Positions 6,001 through 62,448 of a stretch of DNA of 64,000 nt are shown piece by piece. Source of the stretch: Sediminibacterium sp. (lineage in GTDB: Bacteria > Bacteroidota > Bacteroidia > B-17B0 > Aurantibacillaceae); contig JASGCO010000015.1 in assembly GCA_030054095.1 (NCBI GenBank), positions 1 to 64,000 on the forward strand, in the 5' to 3' direction. Each line of letters opens with the position of its first letter. The first letter of the stretch is position 1. Made by a program: the position numbers and the translations under genes. Below the pieces are notes generated by a model that was not told where the DNA came from, did not search any database, and saw only the letters and a list, made by a program, of their open reading frames with translations.

Positions 6001-6971
6001 ATGAAAAGCTCAAAAAAAAGCGTTGCTGGGCCTGCGGAAGTTTGGATGTAATCCGATGGGGAAAACAATTAGGTAAGCAAAGATTTAAGTGCCAAAACTG
6101 CGGGATTTTATTTACCCGAAATGATCCGGAACAGCGATTAAAAAATAGATTTGTTTGGTTTAAGAAATGGATTTTAGAACGACAAACATTTAAAACCTTG
6201 AGTCGGGATAGTGGCTTGTCAAAAGATACTTTGCAAAAGGCTTTTTATGTTTTCCTGGAACGCTCACCTTTGATTAGAATCCAAAAGCGTCCTCATGTTC
6301 ACCTGAGAATTGATGCAACCTACTTTAAACAGTTTTGCTTGGTTTGTTATCAGGATAATAACGATGGTTATACGCAATTGATTCGATTTTCGGATGGAGA
6401 GCATTATCAAGAAATAAAAGAAGATTTAGACAATCTTATAAAGCTTGGAGTAGCTATTGAAAGTATCACAACAGATGGACATAAAAGCATTTTAAAAGCG
6501 ATAAAAAAGACCGTTCCGAATGTCATTACTCAAAGATGTCTTGTTCATATCCAACGAATGTGCTTGTTATGGCTGACAAGGCTTCCGAAGCATGAAGCAG
6601 GTAAGGAATTAAGAGCGTTGACTCTGATGTTGCTCAAAATCAAAACCCGTAACGATCAGATTTTTTGGACAAGAGAATTTGAAAAATGGCATACAAAGCA
6701 TAAGGATTATCTTACTCAAAAAACATACAATGAAAGAACTGGATGGTATTGGTTTACACATAAACTGACCAGACGTTCATACTATACCATAAAACGAGCT
6801 TTACCAAATATGTTTCATTACATCAATAATCCCAATATTCCACGTACGACAAATGGTATAGAAGGCTTCTTTAGCCACCTTAAAAACCATCTTGACCTCC
6901 ATAGAGGACTTACAACAAAACACCGAATAGATTTTATCAAATGGTACATATACTTTTCTAACGAAAAGTGA
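6001..6971 (+). CDS. IS256-type transposase, needs -1 frameshift on A8 run
   Basis: The main frame has no ATG near its N-terminus; its first possible start is a TTG at 6042. An ATG at 6001 reads MKSSKK and reaches an A8 run (6012-6019). Slipping back one base on A-AAA-AAA joins it to KRCWACGSLDVIRWGKQLGK and the rest, giving about 323 residues. Only the joined form contains both halves of the N-terminal zinc ribbon, CWAC and CQNC. The DDE catalytic residues are visible as the Asp of LRIDATYF, the Asp of TTDGHKS and the Glu of TNGIEGFF. The enzyme cuts and joins the element's ends. The alternative is that the gene lost or gained one A and is dead, but the intact ends and duplication favour programmed slippage. 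Confidence 0.8.
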
Positions 6972-7236: not shown

Positions 7237-7644
7237 TCAGCGTTTTTTCTTTAACCGTTTTTTCATACTTTTCCAATAGTGATTGGTGTAATCTACAAAG
7301 ATTTCTTCTCCTGCTTTAATGTTCCGCGAGGCAACAATAAAGCATTTGTCGCCATAAATGATATAATCACTATTGTTTTTTACACCTTTCAAACGTGTAA
7401 ACCCATTCGCGTCGTTAGCGTACCGAGCTTTATACTGAGGAGTATGCATGGCATCAATGCACAAATCACGCCGTAAATAGAACAGGTATTGATCTACTTC
7501 TTTTCTGGCTCTACGACGGTATTCCTGATAATCTATTATTTCGCCCCTGTACTCTATAATTTTACAGCCTTCACGAATGGCTTTAGTAGTAAATAAACCT
7601 TTTCCGGCACCGGGTAATCGCGATTTTTTAATGAGGAGGGCCAT
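7237..7644 (-). CDS. SET-domain protein (lysine methyltransferase-like)
   Basis: A compact SET domain. The N-terminal strand reads LIKKSRLPGAGKGLFTTKAI, the G-x-G-x-G/GLF form of SET-N. YGDKCFIVASRNIKAGEEIF followed by VDYTNHYW near the C-terminus contains the conserved AxRxIxxGEEIxxDY core that binds S-adenosylmethionine and the target lysine channel. The reading frame is open further upstream to 7749, but those residues do not resemble the family. The ATG at 7644 gives a 135-residue protein starting MALLIKKS, which I prefer. Bacterial SET proteins methylate lysines of proteins, but the target here is unknown. It lies 72 bp from the IS element. A four-base-spaced basic tail (KRLKKKR) ends the protein. 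Confidence 0.8.
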   Translation of the reverse strand: MALLIKKSRLPGAGKGLFTTKAIREGCKIIEYRGEIIDYQEYRRRARKEVDQYLFYLRRDLCIDAMHTPQYKARYANDANGFTRLKGVKNNSDYIIYGDKCFIVASRNIKAGEEIFVDYTNHYWKSMKKRLKKKR

Positions 7645-7762: not shown

Positions 7763-9058
7763 TCAGAAGGTATATTTTATCCCGCCGACCAGAATATTAT
7801 AACGGTAATTAAATTTCTGAATCGATTCTTGTTTGAACTCTAATTGATAAATACCATATACGTCAAGGTGTTTTGAAATGGTTACATTCAACATTCCTGA
7901 ATACCTTGACGATGTAAGGTCAGGAGAGTTATTAACGAAATAACCATTGTCTTCTATAATGTTGTTGCCGGTATTGAGCATGTACGTCAGTTTCGCCGAT
8001 ATACGCCTGTGTGGTTTTACGTAAACAAAGGGTAACAGAGAGTAATACGTGTTGGTGTACGAATCGTTTGTATGCAGATACAACGTGTTGCCAATTACTA
8101 GAGAACTATTTCCGAATATAGCGTATGAAGCAAACGCACTATGTAATAACTGTGTTTTGTCGAATAAGTTTGAAACACTTGTCCCAACAGAGAGTGTAAG
8201 GCGTTTGTGAGCTTTTTGAATGGCAGCGGAGCCTACAAAATAATTGGAAACCGATACAGAATTTGTAATCGTAGGCGGTCCCGGAGGCCTTGGTGGAGTG
8301 GGATATACAGGAACCTGACTTGTAAAATTGATGTTGACCCAATGAATAGATGGAGATAACAACCAATTTCCTTTTAATGGCAGCGCTGCCTTTAGGTAAT
8401 ATTCTGATTGAACAAGATTACCTATAAACGTTTTTTGAGAGAAGTACGTGGCTGCGTGCGAAATAGCGACTCTGTTTTTTATATAGTGGGTTAAACCTGC
8501 ATGCAGATAAGTTGGCGGATCAAAAAAAATGGTATTCGTTTTTTTATTGGTATCGTAGTAGGTAAGACTGTCACTTAGTTTAGTCCCGCCTTCAACAAAT
8601 ATGTTTTCTATGGGCTTACGTGAAACAACACCCGTCCTTTCCGCTAATCCACCCGAAAAAGAGTGGCTTAACCATCTGGCATGTTCATTTTTGCCCGTGA
8701 ATATATAGCAGAAGTACAAATATTCCAGCGCTGCTTCGTCGTTGTTATTGAGTGTTAGTGCCTTTTTAAAGTAGTTCTCAGCCAGACAGTAGTTTTTCAA
8801 TTGATAGTACGCAATACCTACCCGCATTTGCATATAATAGTAATCATGCCCTTGTTTTATGGCTTCCTTTCCAAGTTGTATCAGTTTTTTCCAGTCGCCG
8901 TTCGTATATAGTTGGTAGGTTTGCTGCTCTATATTTTCACTAGTGGATTCTTCTTGCGCAAATAGGCTAACTCCGCAAAAGAAAAGAGAGATAAGGAAAA
9001 AAATGCTCCGTTTACACAAAACGTTCAATAGACCTGAGCCTTTAAAAATGCGCTTCAT
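7763..9058 (-). CDS. Outer-membrane beta-barrel with N-terminal TPR (YaiO-like)
   Basis: A 431-residue exported protein. A hydrophobic signal sequence ends near residue 34 (CGVSLFAQ). TPR-like helices at about 45-125 (QMRVGIAYYQLKNYCLAENY, KKALTLNNNDEAALEYLY) precede a C-terminal half rich in alternating beta-strands, ending in LVGGIKYTF with a terminal Phe, as outer-membrane barrels do. This layout is that of YaiO-family proteins. A proline-rich loop (PTPPRPPGPPT) lies around residue 260. Its start overlaps by one base the stop of the TPR gene upstream, and a urea-transporter/M23 fusion precedes that, so the three are one operon. Its role is not known; the context suggests that it acts with the membrane-bound peptidase. 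Confidence 0.7.
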   Translation of the reverse strand: MKRIFKGSGLLNVLCKRSIFFLISLFFCGVSLFAQEESTSENIEQQTYQLYTNGDWKKLIQLGKEAIKQGHDYYYMQMRVGIAYYQLKNYCLAENYFKKALTLNNNDEAALEYLYFCYIFTGKNEHARWLSHSFSGGLAERTGVVSRKPIENIFVEGGTKLSDSLTYYDTNKKTNTIFFDPPTYLHAGLTHYIKNRVAISHAATYFSQKTFIGNLVQSEYYLKAALPLKGNWLLSPSIHWVNINFTSQVPVYPTPPRPPGPPTITNSVSVSNYFVGSAAIQKAHKRLTLSVGTSVSNLFDKTQLLHSAFASYAIFGNSSLVIGNTLYLHTNDSYTNTYYSLLPFVYVKPHRRISAKLTYMLNTGNNIIEDNGYFVNNSPDLTSSRYSGMLNVTISKHLDVYGIYQLEFKQESIQKFNYRYNILVGGIKYTF

Positions 9059-9666
9059 TATTTAATCAGACTTAGTCCCTCCAGTGCAGATTTATCATTA
9101 GGGCTGTAAAGTAAGACTTTATTGAATAAGGTAACCGCGTCGTTCTTGTTGCCAAGGAAATAATTGGTCCATGCACTCATCAGCATATTATTATACCCAA
9201 ATGGTGTAAGATTCAAAGAAACATCAAAACATTTCTTGGCATTTGCATAATCTTTACGGTAGTAATAAATAAGACCAAGGTTGTAATTGGCTGAAGCATT
9301 TTGGGGATCAGATTTTATAATGCCCAGATAGGTTTTTTCCACATCAGTCCAGTTTTCAAGTTTTGAGTAAACGTTAATAATGGCCCATTTTGGTTCCGTT
9401 GCAGCAGGCATTAAGGCAATGGCTTTCTGGTAATACGAAACAGATTCTTTGTATTTGGCAGACAGATAATATAACCAGCCCAGTCTTAAATTTGTTTCAT
9501 AAGATGTAGCAGTATAGACGCTTGTTAGCTCATTTATAGCCGAATCGTATTTTTGAGCAGATTCGTACTCGTATGATTTACTAAAGGCGCTTACTAACGG
9601 TTTGTTAGTTTGTGAAAAACCTGTAAAGGTTACAGCTGTGGTTAAAATTAAAAATGCTCTTTTCAT
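9058..9666 (-). CDS. Exported TPR-repeat protein
   Basis: A 202-residue protein with a signal peptide (FLILTTAVTFTGFSQ) followed by four to five tetratricopeptide repeats. Clear examples are LRLGWLYYLSAKYKESVSYY, ANYNLGLIYYYRKDYANAKK and ALFNKVLLYSPND-type helices. TPR arrays bind partner proteins. The product should be periplasmic, and its partners are probably the products of the genes on either side: 20 bp separates it from the urea-transporter/M23 gene, and it overlaps the beta-barrel gene by one base. No enzyme motif is seen. Confidence 0.78.
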   Translation of the reverse strand: MKRAFLILTTAVTFTGFSQTNKPLVSAFSKSYEYESAQKYDSAINELTSVYTATSYETNLRLGWLYYLSAKYKESVSYYQKAIALMPAATEPKWAIINVYSKLENWTDVEKTYLGIIKSDPQNASANYNLGLIYYYRKDYANAKKCFDVSLNLTPFGYNNMLMSAWTNYFLGNKNDAVTLFNKVLLYSPNDKSALEGLSLIK

Positions 9667-9686
9667 AATAATTAAAATTTAAAGTT

Positions 9687-11897
9687 TTATTCAGATACGG
9701 TGTAATAGTTTTCGGTTGTGTTTTTGTGATGAATGGTAAAGCGGTGTATTTTGCTGTTTTTTAGTTCAATTTCAAAATTGATTTTTTTTAATGATGATGC
9801 CATTAATTTTGTTTCTACTTCTGTAGCTACAATAAGTTTTTGAGGCGCGTAAGCATTATCGCTGTATGTAAAACGCGAGGTGTACCGGGCTTTTGTAAAC
9901 AAATAAAATGGCGACAAAAAGTCCTGGAAAAACTGAATAAGTTTTGTGTTAAAGTGTATCAGCGGGACATTGTCGCTTACTTCCACATTGTCGTAGTACC
10001 CAAGTAATTGTCTATAAGCAGCCAGATAGAAGTGGAAAAGCAACGCGTTTTTATCGCCTTCAAAATCGGTAAAATAAAGCATGACACCATCATTCACAAA
10101 GTAGGCGTGGGATTTTGTTTTTGTACAGTATAGATAAGTTCTGTTTAGCGCGTCTGTATAAATCTCCCAAGTTATCAGTTCATCGCTGTTTTCTTTTTTA
10201 AAACAGATTTTATTTCCAGGCAAAAAGGAAAAGCCGTAGAGAAGTAATTCGTTTACCTGTACGTTACTAATAAATGAACCTTCTGTCGGAATTTCGGATA
10301 TCCGCAACTCTTTTTTGTTATTTTTCCGTTCAATGAAATAAGCAATAGGGTATGATAAGGTATGAGCCCCGATCGTTGGCAGTGTCTGTAGTTGAAAATG
10401 AATATGGGGTTCAGGTGAACGGCCTGAATTTCCGCAGGTTGCAATAAATGTCCCTTTCGTAATGTACTGGCCTATAAAAACATTAAAAGAATCTTTCTTT
10501 ATATGACTTATTTGCGAAAATAAGCCATTCAGGTGGTTTAAAATAACCGTATTTCCCCAATTCTTTTCTGTATCTATATCTCCTATGTCGTTTTCTTCAA
10601 CCGTATTAATAATATCATATACATATCCGTCATACGGCGCCACAATTTCCTTGTTGTAGCAGTAAAAATTTTCCCGGCTAAAGTTTTCCCGTAAATCAGA
10701 AGGTTCTCTGTAAGTGTTATTTTTCGAATCCACAATAACAAAATCGAGTGCTTTGCTCCAGTCGCCGAGATGAGTTATTTTTCCATCGTAGCCCTGACTA
10801 ACATACCATTCGCCTAAGAACGGTAGCGATAGTTTGTATAAATGTTCATTCTTAAACCGCTGAATGGAATTGAGGTATTTGTATATCGTTTTTTCTGCTG
10901 AAAAATACTGTATACTGACAACCGTAAGGTATTTGTGGAACCAACGCTGATTGAGGGCAAACAGAAAAGCGGTACATACGAAACTAAAGGATAGCGAATA
11001 AGCTTTTAGTTGAAATACTTCCATAATTTTGCCAAGGGATAATGATACTAAGAGTAGCACGGGAATCAGTATAACAACAGTTAAGTAAGAATAGAAATTA
11101 GGAATGATAAAGAAACAACCAATGGCTATGGCCAGAAACATGAAGTTGGCGCCTAACAGGTTATAATTCAAATCCGCCACATCTGCACCAAAAACGGAAT
11201 AGTAAAAATAAGCAAGGTAAAAGCCTAAAACTGCAAGTGAAAACGCTATTCTTGAAAAGTACAGTAAGCCAAAAGCTACCAGTATGCCCCCCAGTACACT
11301 CTTCTGGAAAAAGGTAGCGGAGAGTGTTTTAAAAAAAATCATTAAAAAATCGGGCAGGGCGATATTATTTAGTGAATATACCATTTGGTAAAATAAGGAA
11401 GATTCGTTGCGCGTGGCTTCATTTATCGTATAAACGTGGGCCTCATCAAATTGTACGTTAGTAAAGTTAAAGGCGGCGAGCGAAACAATCCAATATGTAA
11501 TAATAAACGGAAAGGAGAGAAATGGAAGATTGTAAATAGCAAAAAGTCCTTTCAGCCATACCGTTACCAAAAGAAGCGCGATAACTGCTGAGAAAAAAAG
11601 AACGATAAACGACAGATTAACGGAAAATTCATATCCCATTGCCAGACCTAAAAACAAAGCATTGAATCCGAACAGCCCGCTGCGAATCTCCTGGCGGTTA
11701 AATCCAATAAAATAGGCGATGGTATTTATCAGTAAAACGGATAGTAATCCCCATAAACCAATCAGTGGTGAAAAAAAGGTAACGATTAGAATAATAAGCG
11801 CAAAAACCTTGTTCTGGGAAAAGAACATAAGGCTGTAACTGTTCAATGTACTCTGTAACCAGTAATCTGCATGTAAATATGTTGCCTTGTTATTCAT
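9687..11897 (-). CDS. Urea-transporter domain fused to M23 metallopeptidase domain
   Basis: A 736-residue protein with two unrelated halves. Residues about 15-330 carry ten or so hydrophobic segments. FFSPLIGLWGLLSVLLINTI, IRSGLFGFNALFLGLAMGYE and a second internal copy with NYNLLGANFMFLAIAIGCFF resemble the inverted-repeat urea transporter (UT) fold, in which the L-x-G-[FY]-N loops line the pore. Residues about 370-530 form an M23 (LytM) peptidase with likely zinc ligands H376 and D385 (THLGDWSKALDF) and H500 in PHIHFQLQ, plus H465 in the SHI segment. M23 enzymes cut peptidoglycan cross-links. The C-terminal 200 residues are unassigned. It leads a three-gene operon with a TPR protein and a beta-barrel. 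No urease is in the window. Topology (cytoplasmic or periplasmic peptidase) is not settled by sequence alone. Confidence 0.82.
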   Translation of the reverse strand: MNNKATYLHADYWLQSTLNSYSLMFFSQNKVFALIILIVTFFSPLIGLWGLLSVLLINTIAYFIGFNRQEIRSGLFGFNALFLGLAMGYEFSVNLSFIVLFFSAVIALLLVTVWLKGLFAIYNLPFLSFPFIITYWIVSLAAFNFTNVQFDEAHVYTINEATRNESSLFYQMVYSLNNIALPDFLMIFFKTLSATFFQKSVLGGILVAFGLLYFSRIAFSLAVLGFYLAYFYYSVFGADVADLNYNLLGANFMFLAIAIGCFFIIPNFYSYLTVVILIPVLLLVSLSLGKIMEVFQLKAYSLSFSFVCTAFLFALNQRWFHKYLTVVSIQYFSAEKTIYKYLNSIQRFKNEHLYKLSLPFLGEWYVSQGYDGKITHLGDWSKALDFVIVDSKNNTYREPSDLRENFSRENFYCYNKEIVAPYDGYVYDIINTVEENDIGDIDTEKNWGNTVILNHLNGLFSQISHIKKDSFNVFIGQYITKGTFIATCGNSGRSPEPHIHFQLQTLPTIGAHTLSYPIAYFIERKNNKKELRISEIPTEGSFISNVQVNELLLYGFSFLPGNKICFKKENSDELITWEIYTDALNRTYLYCTKTKSHAYFVNDGVMLYFTDFEGDKNALLFHFYLAAYRQLLGYYDNVEVSDNVPLIHFNTKLIQFFQDFLSPFYLFTKARYTSRFTYSDNAYAPQKLIVATEVETKLMASSLKKINFEIELKNSKIHRFTIHHKNTTENYYTVSE

Positions 11898-12140: not shown

Positions 12141-12578
12141 ATGGGATCTACGGTTAATTTAAAGAGCAAAATAAAGGAAGCTAGTCTTCAGAAGATCAAG
12201 CAAAAAGCCATTTTTAAGAATTTTGTGACCTGGTTCGAGATTCCAGCCTATAACCATTACCGATCCGTTGCTTTTTATAATTATATCTATGGCATAGAAA
12301 TTACATCGGTTGAGATTAATGGATTGGCTATGGGGTTTTTTCCTGCGGAAAGCGGCATCGGAGGGGCAATTGTGACAGGCCCCGGATGTGTTCCCAGTGA
12401 AATTGGCCCGCTGATTTACCTTAACGGAGGAGAAGACCTTAATCTCGTTCTGTCAAAAGTGAACGAAGCGGGCGGAAGGGTAGTGATGGAAAAGACCTAT
12501 ATAAGTGATTCTGCAGGTTATTTTGCCATTTTTATTGATACTGAGGGTAACCGACTGGCCCTTCATTCTAAATATTAA
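12141..12578 (+). CDS. VOC-family (glyoxalase/bleomycin-resistance fold) protein
   Basis: A 145-residue single-domain VOC protein. After a basic N-terminal tail, WFEIPAYNHYRSVAFYNYIY (about residues 31-50) is the usual first beta-alpha unit. LIYLNGGEDLNLVLSKVNEA and GYFAIFIDTEGNRLALHSK (from about 125) give the family's GxxxxFxDPEGNxxxL ending with a metal-binding-type glutamate. These proteins bind small molecules or metals, and the substrate is unknown. The gene ends 10 bp before the ATG of the large decarboxylase, so it is probably the first gene of that operon. It starts at the first ATG, and no hidden upstream domain is seen. Confidence 0.82.
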   Translation: MGSTVNLKSKIKEASLQKIKQKAIFKNFVTWFEIPAYNHYRSVAFYNYIYGIEITSVEINGLAMGFFPAESGIGGAIVTGPGCVPSEIGPLIYLNGGEDLNLVLSKVNEAGGRVVMEKTYISDSAGYFAIFIDTEGNRLALHSKY

Positions 12579-12588
12579 TACACCCTTT

Positions 12589-15330
12589 ATGAGTTTAAAG
12601 CATTATAATATCCATCATTTAAGAGTTGATCTCTGGAATGAGCTAAAGGAAAAGAGTAATCAAATAACCCGGTTACAGAATACGCCAGCTTTTGAGGAGC
12701 GATTACAGGAAATGAACATTGCACTTCGAGACCTCCTTAGTATTGAACAGTATTTCTCTTTTCCCGGCTCTAATTTGGTGGGGCAGATTATGAAGGCGGT
12801 AAAAAAAGGAGAATTAAAAGCGGTTAGTAACAGAGTGTCAGAATTAGTTGCGCTATTAGTTAGCGATAATTATCGGCTTCATCCCGAAATGATGGACGAA
12901 AATTACAAGGGTGGGTATGTTAACGATGGTAAATCGGGAAAGATAGGCGCGAGTCCTAAAAAGAATTATTTTGAAGTGTTGTATGTTGAAGACCTCACGG
13001 CAAAAGAAGAAGAACTTTTAAAAGAAAAGTTTAGAGACCTGGTTAATCCACAAGCTCAGCTTACATACGATATTGTCGTTCAAAGGTCGTTTCAGGACGC
13101 GTTGATTTGTTTATTCTTTAATTATAATATTCAGGCTGCTGTTATTCGTTATGCCCCGCAACTGCTATCCTCTAATATTAACAGTCTTATTAAACCATTT
13201 ATTCAAAATGTTTTAAAGGTAGATCTTTCAAATGTGAGCGATGCGGAGATTGGTCCGCTCTTAGGGAAGTATATTCACCAGTTCAGGCCCGAACTGGATA
13301 TTTATTACGTTACCGACAATTCGCTCTCTCACCTCGATGATTCTACCGTCAAATCATTCCGCCGTATTTTTTACCGGATGGAGGATTTTCAGGAATTGCA
13401 TCTTACCATTATCAGCGGAATCAACGATCGTTATGAAACTCCATTCTTTACGGCTTTAACAGAATACAGTAAACGCCCAATCAGTGTGTTTCATGCCATG
13501 CCAATTTCACGGGGTAATTCTGTTTTTAAATCACGCTGGATTACCGATTTTGGCGATTTTTACGACAGAAACCTCTTTCTTGCCGAAACTTCCGCTACCA
13601 ACGGGGGGCTTGATTCTCTCCTGCAACCAAAAGGGCCTATGAAAAAGGCTCAGGACAAAGCGGCTAAGGCTTTCGGAGCTGAACATACTTTTTATGTAAC
13701 GAATGGAACATCTACCGCCAATAAAATTGTACAACAAGCTCTTATTCGTCCCGGTGATGTGGTTTTAGTGGACCGTGATTGTCATAAATCGCATCACTAT
13801 GGTCTTGTGCTGGCAGGGGCGTACCCCGCTTATCTGGATTCATATCCCATCCAGGAGTATTCCATGTATGGTGCCGTACCCTTAAGCGTTATTAAGGAAA
13901 AACTAATCCAATTAAGCAAAGCCGGACGTTTGGATAAAGTAAAAATGTTGTTGCTTACCAATTGTACCTTCGATGGTTTAGTATATAATGTCGAAAAGGT
14001 GATGGAAGAAGTATTGGCGATTAAACCAGATATGGTGTTTTTGTGGGACGAAGCCTGGTTTGCCTTTGCAAGTTTTACATACACATACAAGCAACGTACA
14101 GGCATGTACGTGGCTCAAAAGTTGTTTCATAAGTACCGGAGCGAAGATTACCGGAAACAGTATAAGGCGCATCTGGCTTCACTAAAACCGGGAGAGCTGC
14201 CAGCACTACCGGATCCCGACAAAGTAAAGATAAGGGTATATGCTACACAGAGTACGCACAAAACACTGTCTTCTTTCCGGCAGGGATCAATGATTCAGGT
14301 ATGGGACGAAGAGTTTAGCCGCCGGGTGGCCGATAACTTTCAGGAAGCATACATGACGCATACGACCACTTCGGCCAACTATCAGATTGTAGCGTCACTG
14401 GATGTGGGACGGCGTCAGGTTGAGCTGGAAGGCTATGAACTTGTTGAAAAGAGTATCGAGATGGCAATGATCCTTCGTTCGAAGATTCAGGATCATCCGA
14501 AATTAAGTAAGTATTTTCATGTGTTGGAGGTAAAAGACATCATTCCCGGTAAGTACCGTAAATACGGAAAGGGAGAGTATTACACCGTGCAGGATGGCTG
14601 GGACCGAATGGAGGAGGCCTGGGAAAAAGATGAGTTTGTACTCGATCCGACCAAGGTAAATCTTTCGGTTGGCAAAGCCGGAATTACCGGAGACGCGTTC
14701 AAGAACAGTTACTTAATGGATCGTTTTAATATTCAGGTAAACAAAACATCGCGTAATACGGTGTTATTAATGACCAATATAGGAACAACGCGTGGCAGCG
14801 TTACATTTTTAATAAACGCCCTCTTGCAAATAGCCGATGAATTGGATGAAAGTAACCGTTCCCTTAACGAACGTGAGACAGAAATATCAAAAAAGCACAT
14901 ACAATCTTTAATTAAAGATGTGCCACCTCTGCCCGATTTCAGTACGTTTCACCGTTCGTTTTTGGCGGCACCGGGTGTACCGGGCGGAAATATACGTGAA
15001 GCTTTCTTTCTGGCCTATGAAGAAGATTTGTGTGAGTATGTGTTGCTAAAAGATTGTTTGAATGAGTTGAAAGATGGCAAAGAACTTGTTTCAACCTCCT
15101 TTGTGATCCCCTATCCTCCCGGTTTCCCTATCCTTGTTCCGGGTCAGGTTATTAGTGAAGAAATTATCCGCTTTATGATAGCCATTGATGTTAAGGAAAT
15201 CCACGGTTACCGGGCCGATCTGGGATTAAAAGTATTTACCCCGGAAGCACTTAATCGTAAAAATACCATATCGGCAATGGGAGCGATGCCACTCCCGATT
15301 TTTGATAAAAAAATTAAACCAAAAAAATAA
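12589..15330 (+). CDS. Orn/Lys/Arg decarboxylase-family PLP enzyme (913 aa)
   Basis: A fold-type I PLP decarboxylase acting on a basic amino acid. After a roughly 300-residue N-terminal region without obvious motif come SATNGGLDSLLQPKGPM and HTFYVTNGTSTANKIVQQAL, then VLVDRDCHKSHHYG (the stacking His region), VFLWDEAWFAF (Asp that binds the PLP ring) and YATQSTHKTLSSFRQGSMI. In the last, K558 is the Schiff-base lysine. A C-terminal domain with PPGFPILVPGQVIS is typical of the family. At 913 residues it is longer than the usual 700-760, because of the N-terminal region. The frame is open 28 codons further upstream, but those overlap the VOC gene, so I use the ATG at 12589. Which amino acid is used cannot be told. 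The next gene, an ATP-grasp ligase, begins 9 bp downstream. Confidence 0.87.
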   Translation: MSLKHYNIHHLRVDLWNELKEKSNQITRLQNTPAFEERLQEMNIALRDLLSIEQYFSFPGSNLVGQIMKAVKKGELKAVSNRVSELVALLVSDNYRLHPEMMDENYKGGYVNDGKSGKIGASPKKNYFEVLYVEDLTAKEEELLKEKFRDLVNPQAQLTYDIVVQRSFQDALICLFFNYNIQAAVIRYAPQLLSSNINSLIKPFIQNVLKVDLSNVSDAEIGPLLGKYIHQFRPELDIYYVTDNSLSHLDDSTVKSFRRIFYRMEDFQELHLTIISGINDRYETPFFTALTEYSKRPISVFHAMPISRGNSVFKSRWITDFGDFYDRNLFLAETSATNGGLDSLLQPKGPMKKAQDKAAKAFGAEHTFYVTNGTSTANKIVQQALIRPGDVVLVDRDCHKSHHYGLVLAGAYPAYLDSYPIQEYSMYGAVPLSVIKEKLIQLSKAGRLDKVKMLLLTNCTFDGLVYNVEKVMEEVLAIKPDMVFLWDEAWFAFASFTYTYKQRTGMYVAQKLFHKYRSEDYRKQYKAHLASLKPGELPALPDPDKVKIRVYATQSTHKTLSSFRQGSMIQVWDEEFSRRVADNFQEAYMTHTTTSANYQIVASLDVGRRQVELEGYELVEKSIEMAMILRSKIQDHPKLSKYFHVLEVKDIIPGKYRKYGKGEYYTVQDGWDRMEEAWEKDEFVLDPTKVNLSVGKAGITGDAFKNSYLMDRFNIQVNKTSRNTVLLMTNIGTTRGSVTFLINALLQIADELDESNRSLNERETEISKKHIQSLIKDVPPLPDFSTFHRSFLAAPGVPGGNIREAFFLAYEEDLCEYVLLKDCLNELKDGKELVSTSFVIPYPPGFPILVPGQVISEEIIRFMIAIDVKEIHGYRADLGLKVFTPEALNRKNTISAMGAMPLPIFDKKIKPKK

Positions 15331-15339
15331 CGCAAGAGT

Positions 15340-16827
15340 ATGCCTGATTCTAACAGCACTGTAAAGCCGCTTAAAAGTTTAGCTGAAATACGCGACTTTT
15401 TTAAAAATAATACCACGCCTGTCTATTTCATAAGCGCCACTAATTTTAATTTGTTGGGGATGGATGAATGGATTGGTAATTTTAAATTCATTACATACAT
15501 AGATTCATTTGATGGGCAGCATCCCAATTTATTTTCACCTCAGGAAGAACTACCACACGATGAATTTCGTAGTATCGAAGATATTAATAACTACTTGCTC
15601 AGGCATCCGGAAGTAAAGACGTATATTGAGAAAGGAAAAGTAAATGGTGAGGCAGGAAAAGCACTGTTCCTGATGTTCGACGAACGCACAGAGGAACTTG
15701 GGGATGATCTTGGCCTTGATGTTTGTTTTCCCGCGGCAAGGTTGCGGTCTTTTTTAGATAATAAAGTGAACACCAATCGCGTGGCAGAAAGAGCAGGAGT
15801 AGCCTGTGTACCTTATGTGCTGTCTAAAGTAAACGATTATCAGCATTTACTATCAGTTTCAGAACATCTTGGTACAGATCTGGTTATCCAAACACCTTAT
15901 GGCGATTCGGGACACACCACGTTTTTTATTGCCAGTGAAACTGATTTCGATTTGCATAAGGATGAGATTGTGAAAGAGGGTGAAGTGAAAATTATGAAGC
16001 GGATTAATTGTTATGGCACCGCTATTGAAGGATGCGTAACGAGGCATGGCACGATTGTAGCGCCTTTGATGACGGAGTTGGTAGGTTTTAAAGAATTAAC
16101 GCCCTACAAAGGCGGGTGGTGTGGTAATGAAATTTTCCCCGATGCTTTTAATGCCGGTATAAGAGAAAAGGCAAAGACCTACACACAAAAATTTGGCGAT
16201 CAATTACGAAAAGAAGGATACAAAGGGTATTTTGAACTAGATTTTTTAATTGATAAAGACAGTGGTGATATTTATCTGGGAGAATTGAACCCTCGGGTGT
16301 CTGGGGTAAGTTCGCTTACTAATCATTCTAAATTTGCAATGGATGATGTGCCATTGTTTCTTTTTCACATGTTGGAGTGGATGGATGTACCGTATGAGAT
16401 AGATGTGAATGAGATAAGCAACCGTTGGACTCAGGCGGCCAGTATGGACAGCTGGAGCCAGTTGGTAATAAAGCATACCGTTAAAACACTTGAAATAGCC
16501 ACGCAGGCACCCGAATCGGGTATTTGGGAGATGAAACGAAATGGTAGTATTCAGTTTAAAGCAATGGATCCCCACAGACAATCTGTGGTTGACGACAACA
16601 AGGCCTTTTATTTACAGATATCACAAAAGAACGATTACTTGTATGAAGGCGCCGATTTGGGAATACTGGTAATGCGAGGCAGATTAATGACCGATAATTT
16701 TGAGTTAACAGAACGGGCCACGCGCTGGATAAAAGCACTACGCTCACAATACCGCTCGCATGTGATTGACCCGGGTGAATTTAGTGAAGATGAGCTTTTG
16801 AATCTGAGTGGCTTTAAAATGCTTTAG
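15340..16827 (+). CDS. ATP-grasp ligase (biotin carboxylase-like)
   Basis: A 495-residue protein with a central ATP-grasp domain. SFLDNKVNTNRVAERAGVAC (from about residue 141) opens the domain. VIQTPYGDSGHTTFFI is the nucleotide-binding flexible loop. YFELDFLIDKDSGDIYLGEL followed by NPRVSG holds the acidic metal-binding residues E-x-N. Such enzymes activate a carboxylate as acyl phosphate and join it to an amine or thiol. Database entries of this type are often named biotin carboxylase, but there is no biotin-carrier or carboxyltransferase partner here. The gene follows the PLP decarboxylase by 9 bp. A decarboxylase that makes a diamine next to a ligase that forms amides suggests an amide-linked polyamine product; that is inference. 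Confidence 0.75.
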   Translation: MPDSNSTVKPLKSLAEIRDFFKNNTTPVYFISATNFNLLGMDEWIGNFKFITYIDSFDGQHPNLFSPQEELPHDEFRSIEDINNYLLRHPEVKTYIEKGKVNGEAGKALFLMFDERTEELGDDLGLDVCFPAARLRSFLDNKVNTNRVAERAGVACVPYVLSKVNDYQHLLSVSEHLGTDLVIQTPYGDSGHTTFFIASETDFDLHKDEIVKEGEVKIMKRINCYGTAIEGCVTRHGTIVAPLMTELVGFKELTPYKGGWCGNEIFPDAFNAGIREKAKTYTQKFGDQLRKEGYKGYFELDFLIDKDSGDIYLGELNPRVSGVSSLTNHSKFAMDDVPLFLFHMLEWMDVPYEIDVNEISNRWTQAASMDSWSQLVIKHTVKTLEIATQAPESGIWEMKRNGSIQFKAMDPHRQSVVDDNKAFYLQISQKNDYLYEGADLGILVMRGRLMTDNFELTERATRWIKALRSQYRSHVIDPGEFSEDELLNLSGFKML

Positions 16828-54668: not shown

Positions 54669-57095
54669 ATGAAAATTGCAAAAGTATTTTTGATGCTGAT
54701 TGTATTTAGTCATTTTGTAACAAAGGCGCAAACGTTGAGTTTTACAGTTAAAGCCAGTCACCCTCGTATATTGCTTGATACACCTTTGATTCAGCGATTA
54801 CAGGCCAGAGCATTGGCCAATACTCCGGAGTGGCAGGAGTTGCAGACACGTATAAATGGAGTGAACAACCTGAATGCCACGCAAATTATGAATACGGTTT
54901 ATGAGGGGCAGCATTATGCTATTATGCACGCGCTGTCGTTTTACGCAACGGGGAATACCCAGCACCGGGATACGGCGGTCAGCATATTTAAACGATTTTT
55001 CACTTATCATACCACAGATAGCGCTATGTATTATGATGCTGGTTACGCGTCGCGTAGTACACTGTGCGAGGTAGCCATGTTATACGATTGGTTGTATAAT
55101 TATCTACAGGAGCCGTTCCGAATACAGGTCAGAACCCGGCTTATCCATTGGGGAAACTGGTTACTGACTAAACCGAATATTTATGGTATGTGGGGCACTC
55201 TTTACTATGATGAAGGGAATAACTATACAATGGGGCACTTTTCAGGAATCACTCATTTGGGTTTTGCTATATATTCTGAAGATCCTGTAAATGGCACACG
55301 GTTTATTTATAAGTCGGATTCTATACGTCCGTTTTTGACGCATTTTACGAACACCCGGCTGAAACACGGTGATGCCAATGAGGGCTGGGGGTACGGTGCC
55401 GGATATGCTGCCAATTACTTTAAGGCGCTGGCGGTTTACAAAACGGCTACTCAGGCTAATATTAATTATTTTGCTACTACTACTTATGATGAGGATGTAC
55501 TAAAATTTTTACCGATGGCTACGCTACCCGATTTGCGCCGGATGTTACCCGAAGGGGATTGGGCGAGGGAATCAACAGGTAAATTGTGGGACTATCACCG
55601 TTTGGTGACCGATCTGGTTTCTTCTTATTCCAATAGCACTAACACACAGCGTGTGGCCGCTTTTTATGGCCCTGAAACGGTTCCTACAAATACGTTTGAG
55701 GTAACGGCTTATCGTTGGTTCCCTTTTTTATTTCATAACAAGGAGGTAGCCCCTCTGGATTACCGAACATTGCCTTTCTATCAGGGAAATTACATTTATA
55801 CAGATACGAGCGGAACTGATCAACTGGTTGCCCGAACCGGATGGAATACCGGTAGCACCTGGGTAAGTTACAGGGGAGGCGGGCGTTATGGCGATCACGC
55901 GCACAATGGGTCAGGTCATTTTTCGGTGTATAGCAAAGGATGGTTGTTAATTGATAAAAATATTCAGGCTGCCTCCGGAATAGAGGGGTCTGACTCTATG
56001 CATAATTGTATTCATATTGAACGTATGAATAGTATGGAGTTATATCCGTTTAACGGCTATCAAAATGCGGAACACAGTCAGGTTAAACAGCGCGAGTTTA
56101 CAAACGATTATAATTATGTGTGGACAAACGCGACACCGATTTATACTGCCCGAAACTCGCATTTTAATAATGTTGTAAAAAAGGAGCGGCAGTTCTGGTA
56201 TTTTCCGGCACTCAATAAAATAGCGGTTTATGATGTTGCCGCGACTACAACTTCTGGTTACAAAAAATGGTTTGGTCTGACATACAACGGGGCACCTTCA
56301 ATAAGTAACGATTCATCCTATACGTTTTATAGTAATGCTCAGGATAAAGCGGTGGTTTATACTGCGTATCCTTTACAAAAGCAGGTAACGCGGTTTGGAA
56401 ATTCTATCCGCGTTAGAAACCGGAACGCACAAGGTAAAGATTATTTTATGCATTTAGTGTCGGTAGGCCCTGCATCGGGTACTATTGCTCCTGTATTACC
56501 TTTGAACCGCGATAATGGTAGTGTTATCATTTCTGATTTTTACGGATCCTTCCACAGAGAAGCGCTTAAAGATTATGTTATTCTTTTTGCCAGCGATAAT
56601 ACGGCATTTAATTATGATTCGCTTGTGTACGAAGTTCCTGATCATTCTGTTACTCTTCATTCCTACATTGCGGGACTTAACCCTAATACTACATTTTATG
56701 CCTCTTACCTAATATCCGGAATAAATCTGCGGGTGCGGGTCTCTAAGATAAATCATCAGGGGGCTATTCAGATACAAAGCTCTTCAGCGGGATTACTGTC
56801 TTTTGATTTGCCGGGAGTAATAGGGGTAAAGGAAAATACATTTGTTAAAGCCAATTTCAATGTGTTTTACAACGCCTCAGACAAACAAATTGTTGTAAAG
56901 CCTGTTGCAGAGTTTAATGAGAGTTATGCTTTTGATTTGTATAGCGTAGAAGGAAGATACGTACAAAGTGTCGAAATGAATGGAGTAGGAATGCAGGTTA
57001 TTTCTGTAAATGGATTAGCCGCGGGAGTTTATGTATTGAAAATTCAGAACAAACATACAGGAGTTAGTGTTGGGTATAAACTGGTAATTTATTAA
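54669..57095 (+). CDS. Secreted heparinase II/III-like protein, probable T9SS substrate
   Basis: An 808-residue protein with a signal peptide (VFLMLIVFSHFVTKAQ). Residues about 60-340 form an alpha/alpha-toroid-type domain (HALSFYATGNTQHRDTAVSI, AMLYDWLYNYLQEPFRIQVR). A beta-sandwich follows from about 380 with YRGGGRYGDHAHNGSGHFSV, the heparinase II/III signature where the His residues take part in polysaccharide cleavage. The C-terminus (VEGRYVQSVEMNGVGMQVIS, then GLAAGVYVLKIQNKHTGVSV) resembles a type A sorting domain without the usual YPNP start. It could degrade an acidic polysaccharide, but no sugar-use locus is nearby. Two alanines and a serine around the motif are normal. Confidence 0.8.
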   Translation: MKIAKVFLMLIVFSHFVTKAQTLSFTVKASHPRILLDTPLIQRLQARALANTPEWQELQTRINGVNNLNATQIMNTVYEGQHYAIMHALSFYATGNTQHRDTAVSIFKRFFTYHTTDSAMYYDAGYASRSTLCEVAMLYDWLYNYLQEPFRIQVRTRLIHWGNWLLTKPNIYGMWGTLYYDEGNNYTMGHFSGITHLGFAIYSEDPVNGTRFIYKSDSIRPFLTHFTNTRLKHGDANEGWGYGAGYAANYFKALAVYKTATQANINYFATTTYDEDVLKFLPMATLPDLRRMLPEGDWARESTGKLWDYHRLVTDLVSSYSNSTNTQRVAAFYGPETVPTNTFEVTAYRWFPFLFHNKEVAPLDYRTLPFYQGNYIYTDTSGTDQLVARTGWNTGSTWVSYRGGGRYGDHAHNGSGHFSVYSKGWLLIDKNIQAASGIEGSDSMHNCIHIERMNSMELYPFNGYQNAEHSQVKQREFTNDYNYVWTNATPIYTARNSHFNNVVKKERQFWYFPALNKIAVYDVAATTTSGYKKWFGLTYNGAPSISNDSSYTFYSNAQDKAVVYTAYPLQKQVTRFGNSIRVRNRNAQGKDYFMHLVSVGPASGTIAPVLPLNRDNGSVIISDFYGSFHREALKDYVILFASDNTAFNYDSLVYEVPDHSVTLHSYIAGLNPNTTFYASYLISGINLRVRVSKINHQGAIQIQSSSAGLLSFDLPGVIGVKENTFVKANFNVFYNASDKQIVVKPVAEFNESYAFDLYSVEGRYVQSVEMNGVGMQVISVNGLAAGVYVLKIQNKHTGVSVGYKLVIY

Positions 57096-59316: not shown

Positions 59317-62300
59317 TCAGTTAACCGTTTTCAAAAGTTGGAAAGCAGACCAGAAATACGGATGAGGATATGTCTTTCTGACGAAGGATCTGGCTTCTTC
59401 AAACGCTTTTTCAGGGTCGGCAGATGAAACAAATTGTTTGTAAAAGCTGGTCATCAGGAGTTGCGTGGCGGTATCATCCACCGGCCACAAACTCATAATA
59501 ATATAACGAGCCCCGGCAATGGTGAATGCCCTTTGCAAACCAGCTACACCTTCACTGCCCATTTCCGATCCTAATCCGGTTTGGCAGGCACTCAATACTA
59601 CCAGATCTGTATTGGCTAAATTCAAAAGTTCTGCTTCCTTGGCGGTTAATACACCATCGTTTTCCGAGTTAGTGTTTAACGAATCGCTCGTAGCCGGGCC
59701 AACACCTGCCAGAATAAGCCCTGAACGCAGCGCGGCATTATACCTGAGTTTCGAGTTCTCGAATCCAAGCAGTAATTTGTCGGATGTGGTTACATCACTT
59801 AAAAAATAACCATGTGTGGCAATATGTAAAATAGCCGGGGAGGCAATCGTTCTGAGATTTGCTTCGCTAGCCTGTTCATCTGTAAAGAGTGAAACATGCC
59901 AGTTGTTTTTTTGCAGTGTGTTGCGTGCTTCTTCCACTTCTGTTTTTGTGCCCGGAAGTTTCGACAGATTGGTTAATCCATACCGACTGGCCGCCCGTTC
60001 ACTACCCGAGGCTTGCTTTCTGGCTTTAAGATCAAAGTCAAAATCAGGATAACCAAAAAGAGCGGCGGTGGTCTTCTTTACGGTAGCTGCACTTTTTTGC
60101 CGTTTGTAATCAGAAGTATTTAATACGATCTGGATGGTAAGTTTATCGGCAACATACGTTTTGGTGACGTGGTTCCAAAGTCCTGCCGTGCTTATTTTAT
60201 GAAATACACCTGAAGGCGACAAATAGATTTTTGAAATACTGCCAAGTGCCAGATCTATGGGCTTAAAAAAGGATGCGTAGCTTAAGCTGTCTTTTAATTG
60301 CTGATCAATATGCCGGTAATAATAGTCGAACCCAGACGAGTCTATGTAGTTCCCGTTCTGGTAGATAATTAGTTCGGGTGCCTTTGAGGAAGCTTTGGTA
60401 ATAAGAGCTCCATAAAGCGTATTAACAGACGAATCGGTAACGAGTTCATCCACCTTGAAAATTTCAACTAACGCTTCCTGCGGCAATAGCCACTTTTTGT
60501 AATTGTCAAATGTACTGAAGCGCTCCCGCTTGAATCCGTTTAAGCGGGCTTTTAGCTTTACTTCCAGATCTGAAATGGTTTTCATAAGTTCTGTGTCGTC
60601 AAATGCAGCCTGTGTAGATTTATAGTTGTTAATCAGTTCGTTCTTGGCCAGTATCCAGTTTTGGTAGAGCGAGCGTAATCCCTCGTCTCCACTTAAGATA
60701 ATTTGCTGCCGCAACTGAGCCGATTGGCTGGTTAACAAAGACTTCAGACGGATCTGATACTCCAGCATTTTTACAGTGTAAACTGACAGGTCTGTATTGG
60801 GGTGCTTTAAGCGGTAATTCAATACAAAATCATTAAAGCTTTCAATCACGGGAGTTATAAAAGACAGAAACGCCATCTGGTCTTCTTCACTCATGGCATC
60901 AAAGTAATCATTTAGCTGTTTAGCATAGTAATCAAGGCTTGGGAGGTAATACAAACCGGCTTCTTCATAACGATTCGTAAGGGAATACACTTCAGCCAGT
61001 TTAAATTGAGCCAGCGCGTATAACTCATGCGTTTTACCAAAATATTTTGCTGTCAGTTCCAACGCTTCTTTTAAATTACTTTCTGCTTTTTTGTAGTTCT
61101 TTGTACGAATGTAAAGTCCACTTCCCGAAATAAGATACGATGCATACCGATAGTGGCTCTTCCCCACGCTTTGTTCAATAATCATTAGTGCATTGGTTTT
61201 GTATTCTTCGGCGTTCTTATACTCTTTCAGGTAAAGGTAGTTTAATGAGAGGCAGTTCAGAATATTAGCGTAACCCTGATGCTTTTCGCCAACGGTAGAG
61301 GCATAAATTGTTTTTGCTTTGAGGAAGATATCGAGTGCTTCACGGTATTGACCAGCATCCTGCAGAACCATTCCCAGATTAGTGGCCGCGTTGGCATAAT
61401 TTTCTGTTTGGGTGCCAAATCGTTCGGCTCTGGTATTTAATGCGAGTTGTAGTATGCCGGCCGCTTCATTAAACCGGCCCAGTTCACGCAGTAAATCGCC
61501 TTTATTACTTAGCACACTGCAATAAGGCTCAGTTTGGGTTTGATTAAACTGTTTGTATATGCCAATGGCCTTGTTGTAATATTCCTCCGCAGTTTTAAAA
61601 TCGCTGGTAGCTTTGTAACTCAATGCCAGATTGTTGTATATAGTGGCTGTGGTAAGATCTTCTTTTGACCCGTATTGCTTTTGTGTACGGTGGGCCATCT
61701 TCAGATAGTAGATGGCCTGTGTATAATCTCCACTTTCACGGTAACAGTCTCCCAGATTCAGAAAGGAGGTGACATGCGCGCTGGTATCCTTTATTTTAAG
61801 CGCCCGTTCATCCTCCACAATGTTTTTATAAATGGCCAAAGCATCGTTGTACTGCCCCAGGTTCTGGAGAATAATGGCTTTGTAATTCAGCAGGCTTAGG
61901 TATTTCAGATTGTTTTCGCCATCCAGAGTTTTGTAATAGAAAAGCAGAGCTTCTATATTGGGTTTGGCGGCTTCGTACTTCCCCATATCTACAAGTAAGC
62001 CTGTATAATCGTAAAAAATTTGTGTGTATTCGCGGCTACTCTGACCATATATCACCGACATCCCGTACATGCAGGCGTTATAGAACTTCTCGGATTCGGT
62101 AAGATAATTCTGGTGGTGATAAAATTGAGCAAGGTTTAATTCTGTTATATAGATCAGTTGTGTGTCAACAGCCGTTTTAGCAAATTGAAAAGATTGCGCG
62201 TAGCTGTTCCCTGCATTTTCATAATCGCCATTGTTAAACTGGAGGTTCCCCAGCAAAGCATAAAATTGCACGGAGTTGTCGGGGTATTTATCAAACGACC

Positions 62301-62448
62301 GTTTGTATTTTTTCTCGAAATTAAGAAGCTGTTCCGTAGTTATGGAATTAGCGGCCCCGATGATAACTTTAAAATCTGAGATGTAATTCTGGGCGTTTAA
62401 ATTAATGCCAATCAGAAGGGAAAGATAAATACGCAGGGGTAATGCCAT
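59317..62448 (-). CDS. Exported TPR-CHAT protein (caspase-like peptidase)
   Basis: A 1,043-residue protein. A signal peptide (LRIYLSLLIGINLNAQ) is followed by 10 or more TPR repeats (about 50-520). A linker comes next, then a C-terminal CHAT domain (about 730-1043) with ILHIATHGYFLSD (catalytic H879), LVVLSACQTGLGS (catalytic C955) and AGARYIIMSLWPVDDTAT, the family's closing motif. The His/Cys dyad is complete, so cleavage activity is expected. CHAT peptidases fused to TPR take part in protease-based defence and other signalling. Here the signal peptide argues for an envelope role, and no gasdermin-like or CRISPR partner is nearby. It is 133 bp upstream of the TPR-SpoIIE gene on the same strand. 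Confidence 0.87.
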   Translation of the reverse strand: MALPLRIYLSLLIGINLNAQNYISDFKVIIGAANSITTEQLLNFEKKYKRSFDKYPDNSVQFYALLGNLQFNNGDYENAGNSYAQSFQFAKTAVDTQLIYITELNLAQFYHHQNYLTESEKFYNACMYGMSVIYGQSSREYTQIFYDYTGLLVDMGKYEAAKPNIEALLFYYKTLDGENNLKYLSLLNYKAIILQNLGQYNDALAIYKNIVEDERALKIKDTSAHVTSFLNLGDCYRESGDYTQAIYYLKMAHRTQKQYGSKEDLTTATIYNNLALSYKATSDFKTAEEYYNKAIGIYKQFNQTQTEPYCSVLSNKGDLLRELGRFNEAAGILQLALNTRAERFGTQTENYANAATNLGMVLQDAGQYREALDIFLKAKTIYASTVGEKHQGYANILNCLSLNYLYLKEYKNAEEYKTNALMIIEQSVGKSHYRYASYLISGSGLYIRTKNYKKAESNLKEALELTAKYFGKTHELYALAQFKLAEVYSLTNRYEEAGLYYLPSLDYYAKQLNDYFDAMSEEDQMAFLSFITPVIESFNDFVLNYRLKHPNTDLSVYTVKMLEYQIRLKSLLTSQSAQLRQQIILSGDEGLRSLYQNWILAKNELINNYKSTQAAFDDTELMKTISDLEVKLKARLNGFKRERFSTFDNYKKWLLPQEALVEIFKVDELVTDSSVNTLYGALITKASSKAPELIIYQNGNYIDSSGFDYYYRHIDQQLKDSLSYASFFKPIDLALGSISKIYLSPSGVFHKISTAGLWNHVTKTYVADKLTIQIVLNTSDYKRQKSAATVKKTTAALFGYPDFDFDLKARKQASGSERAASRYGLTNLSKLPGTKTEVEEARNTLQKNNWHVSLFTDEQASEANLRTIASPAILHIATHGYFLSDVTTSDKLLLGFENSKLRYNAALRSGLILAGVGPATSDSLNTNSENDGVLTAKEAELLNLANTDLVVLSACQTGLGSEMGSEGVAGLQRAFTIAGARYIIMSLWPVDDTATQLLMTSFYKQFVSSADPEKAFEEARSFVRKTYPHPYFWSAFQLLKTVN

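Follow-up and report, generated by a model that had tools for sequence, protein, structure and literature searches.

The stretch of DNA considered here, hereafter the window, comprises 64,000 nucleotides of Sediminibacterium sp. (contig JASGCO010000015.1, positions 1 to 64,000). It encodes a protein of 736 residues that consists of a full urea-transporter (UT) domain, an M23 zinc-peptidase domain and a third, unnamed C-terminal domain. This UT-M23 protein is accompanied by a tetratricopeptide repeat (TPR) protein and a beta-barrel protein and, on the other strand, by metabolic enzymes. Tentatively, it may be imagined that these genes represent a new system of the Bacteroidota, in which a UT channel with a zinc amidase on its cytosolic face would set a decarboxylated amino-acid product free from its amide and couple this step to the crossing of both membranes by the product. 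The enzyme set of this system would have been swapped once, for an unrelated decarboxylase and another ligase, while channel, TPR protein and barrel were kept. The features concerned are the following, the window clade being the group of fused proteins of the window's own type.

7763–9058, minus strand: protein of 431 aa with a TPR-like helical domain and an outer-membrane beta-barrel, signal peptide recognized by eye (AlphaFold2; Foldseek; conserved neighbour)
9058–9666, minus strand: TPR protein of 202 aa, signal peptide recognized by eye (Pfam TPR_2, 8e-18; conserved beside UT-M23)
9687–11897, minus strand: UT-M23 fusion protein of 736 aa (open reading frame; Pfam UT and Peptidase_M23; AlphaFold2 and Foldseek; homologs in Bacteroidia)
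10956–11855, minus strand: urea-transporter domain, residues 15–314, ten transmembrane helices plus pore helices (Pfam; sequence match to PDB 3me1/3k3f; Foldseek)
10308–10835, minus strand: M23 zinc-peptidase domain, about residues 355–530, with H376, D385, H465, H498 and H500 (Pfam over 415–504; invariance; Foldseek)
9690–10277, minus strand: beta-rich C-terminal domain, about residues 541–736 (homolog alignment; AlphaFold2 model)
12141–12578, plus strand: protein of the glyoxalase/VOC superfamily, 145 aa (weak PDB match to Rv0577; the homolog at locus L237 matches Pfam Glyoxalase; constant in the window clade)
12589–15330, plus strand: OKR-type pyridoxal 5′-phosphate (PLP) amino-acid decarboxylase, 913 aa (Pfam OKR_DC_1; PDB 9n0n; in every genome of the window clade)
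15340–16827, plus strand: ATP-grasp ligase of 495 aa, called 'biotin carboxylase' PRK06524 (NCBIfam NF005096; located behind the decarboxylase gene both in the window clade and in unrelated operons for diamines)

The composition of the fusion protein is supported by several types of comparison. The Pfam UT profile (PF03253) covers residues 15–314 (157.9 bits, E 4e-46, cut-off 25) and Peptidase_M23 covers residues 415–504 (47.1 bits, E 3e-12, cut-off 28.7). In the PDB, the first half of the sequence matches the Desulfovibrio vulgaris transporter dvUT and vertebrate UTs, and the second half matches M23 peptidases. An AlphaFold2 model built with 21 sequences (mean pLDDT 81.7) has its best Foldseek match in the D. 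vulgaris urea transporter 3me1 (TM-score 0.85–0.87 by target length), followed by the M23 domains of DipM, Csd2 and lysostaphin (E 1e-4 to 3e-5). The H...D and HxH zinc ligands and the catalytic histidine of M23 enzymes are all present. Moreover, H376, D385, H465, H498 and H500 are identical in 109 of 109 aligned fused homologs, which shows a strongly constrained zinc site and not a relic. Thus, the original prediction, made from the DNA letters, was right in seeing a ten-helix urea-channel-like half, a zinc-peptidase half with H376, D385 and H500 as ligands, and the union of channel and hydrolase in one protein, and the structure prediction that it had proposed as a check did return the UT fold. 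It had made no mention of the C-terminal domain, which is conserved in the alignment and mostly modelled with a pLDDT of 82–93; no sequence match to this domain was found in Pfam or the PDB. Compared with the M23 (LytM/lysostaphin) peptidases DipM, Csd2 and Pgp3, UT-M23 shares the fold, the full ligand and catalytic set and the CGNSGRSPEPHIHF motif. It differs by its predicted cytosolic location, by its attachment to a channel and by the larger distance from the first His to the Asp (H376...D385), typical M23 enzymes having HxxxD.

The genes of the two partner proteins follow downstream. Only 20 bp separate 9687 from 9666, and the next two genes overlap by 1 bp at 9058, as had been read earlier from the open reading frames. 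The barrel protein is modelled as a helical N-terminal domain followed by a beta-barrel (pLDDT 84.4), with FadL and OmpG as best PDB matches in Foldseek; BcsC is matched too. It thus resembles the BcsC-type TPR-barrel exporters, where helical repeats and an outer-membrane barrel also occur in one chain, but it is shorter, its barrel is at least as OmpG/FadL-like, and no polysaccharide synthase recurs in the operon. The set of UT-M23, TPR protein and TPR-barrel is conserved next to homologs, and the idea that it spans both membranes can be retained: it very probably does. The N termini of the TPR and barrel proteins resemble signal peptides by eye. In other classes of the phylum, the TPR-barrel of some UT-M23 operons is replaced by exported proteins of about 280 aa with a barrel-like appearance (L191, 8763–9596; L193, L206, L207 and L211), which stand after or before the TPR protein; the one of L191, the sole one scanned, has no Pfam match. 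Directly after the barrel gene of the window lies a SET-domain gene (7237–7644, minus strand; Pfam SET, 9e-16). It was considered as a member of the system and set aside, as it is not conserved next to homologs.

Gene neighbourhoods were first compared among related loci, 21 in named genomes and 11 in relatives, and then surveyed for 54 fused loci of the class and 28 further loci, mostly from other classes. Two layouts emerge. In the window layout (65–77% identity), UT-M23, TPR protein and barrel are found with the VOC, OKR decarboxylase and ATP-grasp genes divergently arranged on the other side. In the standard layout (about 33–55% identity), a single operon carries a PqqD-like gene, an ATP-grasp gene (350 aa), a fold-III PLP decarboxylase gene (452 aa), UT-M23, barrel and TPR. 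Of the standard-type loci within the set of 54, which come from many Bacteroidia families, nearly all keep this operon, and it is seen as well as in the 28 further loci, mostly of other classes of the phylum. Its small protein matches PqqD families, and the genes 5′ of it vary, encoding AraC-like, GNAT-like or two-component regulators. None of the neighbours of the fused type was found beside the stand-alone UTs (L148–L153). Outside the three-gene set, UT-M23 is constantly partnered by an ATP-grasp ligase and a decarboxylase of amino acids; hence a small-molecule pathway fits better than remodelling of the wall. A search for a Bacteroidetes promoter motif between the UT-M23 and VOC genes gave nothing consistent, and none of 8 proteins matched the anti-phage defence models of PADLOC.

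The strength of the linkage was assessed in a sample of 395 Bacteroidia genomes. A UT occurs in 103 of these: 81 have the fusion, 3 have UT fragments counted as fused and 19 have stand-alone UTs only. The fusion is thus assigned to 84 genomes, about one fifth of the sample, and it also occurs in other classes. The 3 fragments were counted as fused because their genomes hold the ATP-grasp gene, so that this count leans on ATP-grasp itself; when they are left out, 71 of 81 fused genomes carry it. Conversely, the standard ATP-grasp is present in 75 genomes, 74 of which have the fusion (the exception, G284, is 81% complete), and in 0 of the 19 genomes with stand-alone UTs only. The association gives a Fisher p of 7e-68, kinship being ignored. 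Ten fusion genomes are devoid of the standard ATP-grasp: G241, which is 68% complete; G336, where the locus meets a contig edge and a decarboxylase fragment is seen; and eight of the window type, all eight of which carry the OKR decarboxylase (75–84% identity). In G202, the UT, VOC, OKR and ATP-grasp genes are on one contig. Within the genus of the window, the OKR gene coincides exactly with the window-type fusion: the 6 genomes that have this fusion carry it, and the 31 others, two of them with the standard operon, do not. No copy of the standard ATP-grasp was found in the window genome, where the standard decarboxylase retrieves only a distant LysA-like match (25% identity). Taken together, a linkage of UT-M23 to a decarboxylase and a ligase is very likely.

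How the two enzyme sets are related was examined with a midpoint-rooted maximum-likelihood tree of 58 fused proteins. The window type forms one clade (support 100) nested within the sequences of the standard operon (98–100). Therefore, the standard operon lost PqqD, ATP-grasp and the fold-III decarboxylase, and gained VOC, OKR and another ATP-grasp. Judging from these sequences, the swap apparently happened once. The acquired triad (12141–16827, plus strand), which the original prediction did not include, is transcribed divergently from UT-M23. Its decarboxylase belongs to the OKR family according to Pfam (OKR_DC_1, 264 bits, 2e-78) and to the STHK lysine motif seen by eye (QSTHKTL); the reading frame opens at 12505 and homologs favour the ATG at 12589. 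Compared by sequence, it has its closest PDB match in Rv2531c of Mycobacterium tuberculosis (9n0n), near full length (E 1.6e-236), an OKR decarboxylase whose activity is not established (PMC12910592). The ligase scores 742 bits against NCBIfam NF005096, for a cut-off of 684.

The same triad exists elsewhere in Bacteroidia apart from any UT-M23, with OKR enzymes at 53–63% identity. There it sits with a gamma-aminobutyrate-type transaminase, a CN-hydrolase amidase, a C45 (penicillin-acyltransferase-like) hydrolase and a semialdehyde dehydrogenase (L213, L234, L236–L238, L241 and L245). From these neighbours, it follows that the triad belongs to diamine and omega-amino-acid metabolism with amide-bond hydrolases, and it is possibly a mobile diamine module in its own right. 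Urea production by a ureohydrolase beside the triad was envisaged and discarded, the 330-aa neighbour being the C45 hydrolase instead. As for the standard decarboxylase, it can be aligned over almost its whole length with N-citrylornithine decarboxylase FslC (7kh2) as well as with diaminopimelate decarboxylase LysA, but it stays below both curated cut-offs (214.5 against 297.9 for the LysA equivalog, 223 against 500 for the FslC family). In the alignment with the diaminopimelate decarboxylase 1twi, the arginine of the RPxxY motif is replaced.

The location of the M23 half is essential for any mechanism. UTs have ten transmembrane helices, with N and C termini both on the inner side of the membrane. 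In UT-B, residues L116 and Y122 line a pocket on the intracellular side. A phmmer alignment (window residues 18–142 with UT-B 63–190) places them near window residues 70–77, in a loop found on the same side as both termini, and the AlphaFold2 model passes from helix 10 to the M23 domain with no additional transmembrane helix. Furthermore, when all loops are considered, the net charge of the side of the termini is the more positive one in 24 of 24 window-type, 61 of 61 standard and 20 of 20 stand-alone proteins; with the termini left out, the difference stays in 24/24, 60/61 and 20/20, respectively. Because of the UT topology, the lack of an extra helix and the net loop charge (85/85 fused proteins), the M23 and C-terminal domains are predicted, with good probability, to lie in the cytosol and not to face the cell wall. 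A split of UT and M23 at locus L205 was also considered as evidence on topology. Around 6480–6540 of this locus, in a one-contig genome, the frame is broken near GGAAAAAAC and the fusion reads as two overlapping open reading frames. The break coincides with a stretch of six A, beyond which the homology goes on in the second frame; a sequencing error or slip being possible, this case was put aside.

The pore was compared with that of dvUT and with 20 rows of stand-alone Bacteroidia UTs, some of them from the same genome; chain numbers in the alignment are two below the residue numbers of the dvUT papers. Like the SLC14/UT channels (dvUT 3k3f/3me1, UT-A, UT-B; PF03253), the fused proteins have ten transmembrane helices, an inverted repeat, the LP..PF motif of the first half and most of the pore phenylalanines. 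At the position of dvUT E187, Q or E is found in 20 of 20 stand-alone rows, whereas the standard fused proteins mostly have A, S or G and the window clade G or A. Of the standard fused proteins, 68% retain Q24; in the window clade this position, where present, is occupied by L. The positions of T130 and T294 are S in most. In the window protein, L23 and A194 stand for Q24 and E187, which we take to be the polar pore lining contacting urea, so that the Gln/Glu expected of a functional urea transporter is lacking. The second-half PF motif has become SF (SLSF) in the window clade, and the score against the urea transporter equivalog TIGR03441 (yut) is 102.8 bits for a cut-off of 274.6. Thus, the fold is that of a UT while this polar lining is changed. 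The statement that no urease is encoded in the window extends to the window's own genome, where none was found by a search that was positive in 4 of 14 control genomes. As the polar pore residue of stand-alone UTs is mostly A, S or G in the fused family, comparison of sequences makes a plain urea channel unlikely.

Considering these properties, the following pathway may be envisaged as the simplest one to account for them, and we give it a probability of roughly 0.36. UT-M23, combining channel and hydrolase, would be the inner-membrane part of a pathway dedicated to a small molecule. A cytosolic PLP decarboxylase, LysA/FslC-like and of fold III in most species, of the OKR (Orn/Lys/Arg) type in the window clade, would strip the carboxylate from a basic amino acid or from a conjugate of it. 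The ATP-grasp ligase encoded with it would make an amide with the decarboxylated product. At the mouth of the channel, the cytosol-facing M23 domain would act as a zinc amidase, not as a wall hydrolase, and would hydrolyse the amide or trim the conjugate. The small product released would pass through the UT-fold channel, with its altered selectivity residue, into the periplasm, and would cross the outer membrane via the TPR-barrel porin with the TPR partner. Within this scheme, the domains, the catalytic residues, the conserved operon, its tight link to decarboxylase and ATP-grasp, the single swap in the window clade and the altered pore residue are shown, and the cytosolic side of M23 is predicted; the class of substrate (diamine or amide), the order of the steps and export over uptake are what we infer. 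Several observations weigh against this scheme. As a rule, M23 enzymes are exported, which would make a cytosolic one unusual. With the termini left out, the fused proteins have about as many K and R on one side as on the other, so that net charge and UT homology are the basis for placing the M23 domain. Nothing in the window clade corresponds to PqqD, save perhaps the VOC protein. Finally, the linkage count ignores phylogeny, and neighbouring genes are inherited jointly.

The main rival reverses the direction: a small amide or a compound resembling urea would enter through barrel and UT and be cleaved by the M23 domain in the cytosol, and decarboxylase and ligase would process the fragments, perhaps for nitrogen supply or acid resistance. 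The parts are the same, UTs work passively in both directions, some OKR decarboxylases are enzymes of the acid-stress response, and the OKR triad is found elsewhere in seemingly catabolic operons with transaminase and semialdehyde dehydrogenase. However, an ATP-spending ligase suits synthesis or protection better, and neither a transaminase or dehydrogenase nor a TonB-type receptor gene recurs in the UT-M23 operons, which leaves uptake rather doubtful. The cell-wall or envelope system suggested by the original prediction would have a periplasmic M23 domain cutting peptidoglycan, a UT acting as anchor or moving a small molecule, and TPR and barrel proteins making the link to the outer membrane. 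That M23 domains are typically periplasmic wall hydrolases, that the catalytic residues are intact and that the TPR and barrel proteins look exported would agree with it. This proposal is not borne out, since UT topology and net loop charge place the C-terminal half inside and the constant partners are metabolic enzymes; in addition, the conserved cysteines (413, 488 and 591) make no simple disulfide set. It is accordingly judged unlikely.

Two further models deserve mention. PqqD-like proteins serve peptide maturation, the small protein of the standard operon matches their families, and peptidase and transporter are found in one chain. It might thus be proposed that PqqD is a peptide-binding chaperone, that the ATP-grasp enzyme modifies the peptide and that UT-M23 cleaves the peptide during export, as transporters with a peptidase domain do. 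Such peptide export is quite improbable: within 500 bp 5′ of PqqD, no conserved precursor gene of a ribosomally synthesized and post-translationally modified peptide was found, the small frames there being chance ones or recurrent ones antisense to the upstream gene; PqqD is not near the loci of the window clade; and the UT pore, 2–3 Å at its constriction (PMC10541013), is too narrow for a peptide. Least probable of all would be a urea channel of the usual kind that has gained a regulatory domain. The UT fold and a UT profile well above cut-off speak for it, but this is countered by the missed TIGR03441, by the pore residue changed with respect to stand-alone UTs and by the genome without urease.

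Apart from this system, the window contains a transposase with a mutator/MULE-type domain and a zinc-ribbon-like CxxC stretch near its start (6042–6971, plus strand), an open reading frame of 808 aa with no Pfam match at 1e-5 (54669–57095, plus strand), and a CHAT-domain protein of 1043 aa with TPR repeats (59317–62448, minus strand).

The component families of the system are known, and the architecture and the system itself are apparently undescribed: nothing was found in the open literature, subscription journals being outside the search, on UT and M23 together or on PqqD, ATP-grasp and decarboxylase in this sense. UT proteins are generally regarded as urea channels. Most UTs found here in Bacteroidia (84 of 103 UT genomes) belong to the fused family with its altered pore. 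In view of this pore and of the lack of urease in the window genome, the name 'urea transporter' given by automatic annotation is probably incorrect for the fused family. On another hand, the replacement of a fold-III decarboxylase and its ligase by a fold-I decarboxylase and another ligase beside the same channel represents a natural experiment. Both enzyme sets should yield one and the same product or closely similar ones; the set with OKR hints at diamine chemistry. Owing to this natural experiment, the question of the substrate is within reach of metabolomics, for instance in the host Mucilaginibacter glaciei (L062).

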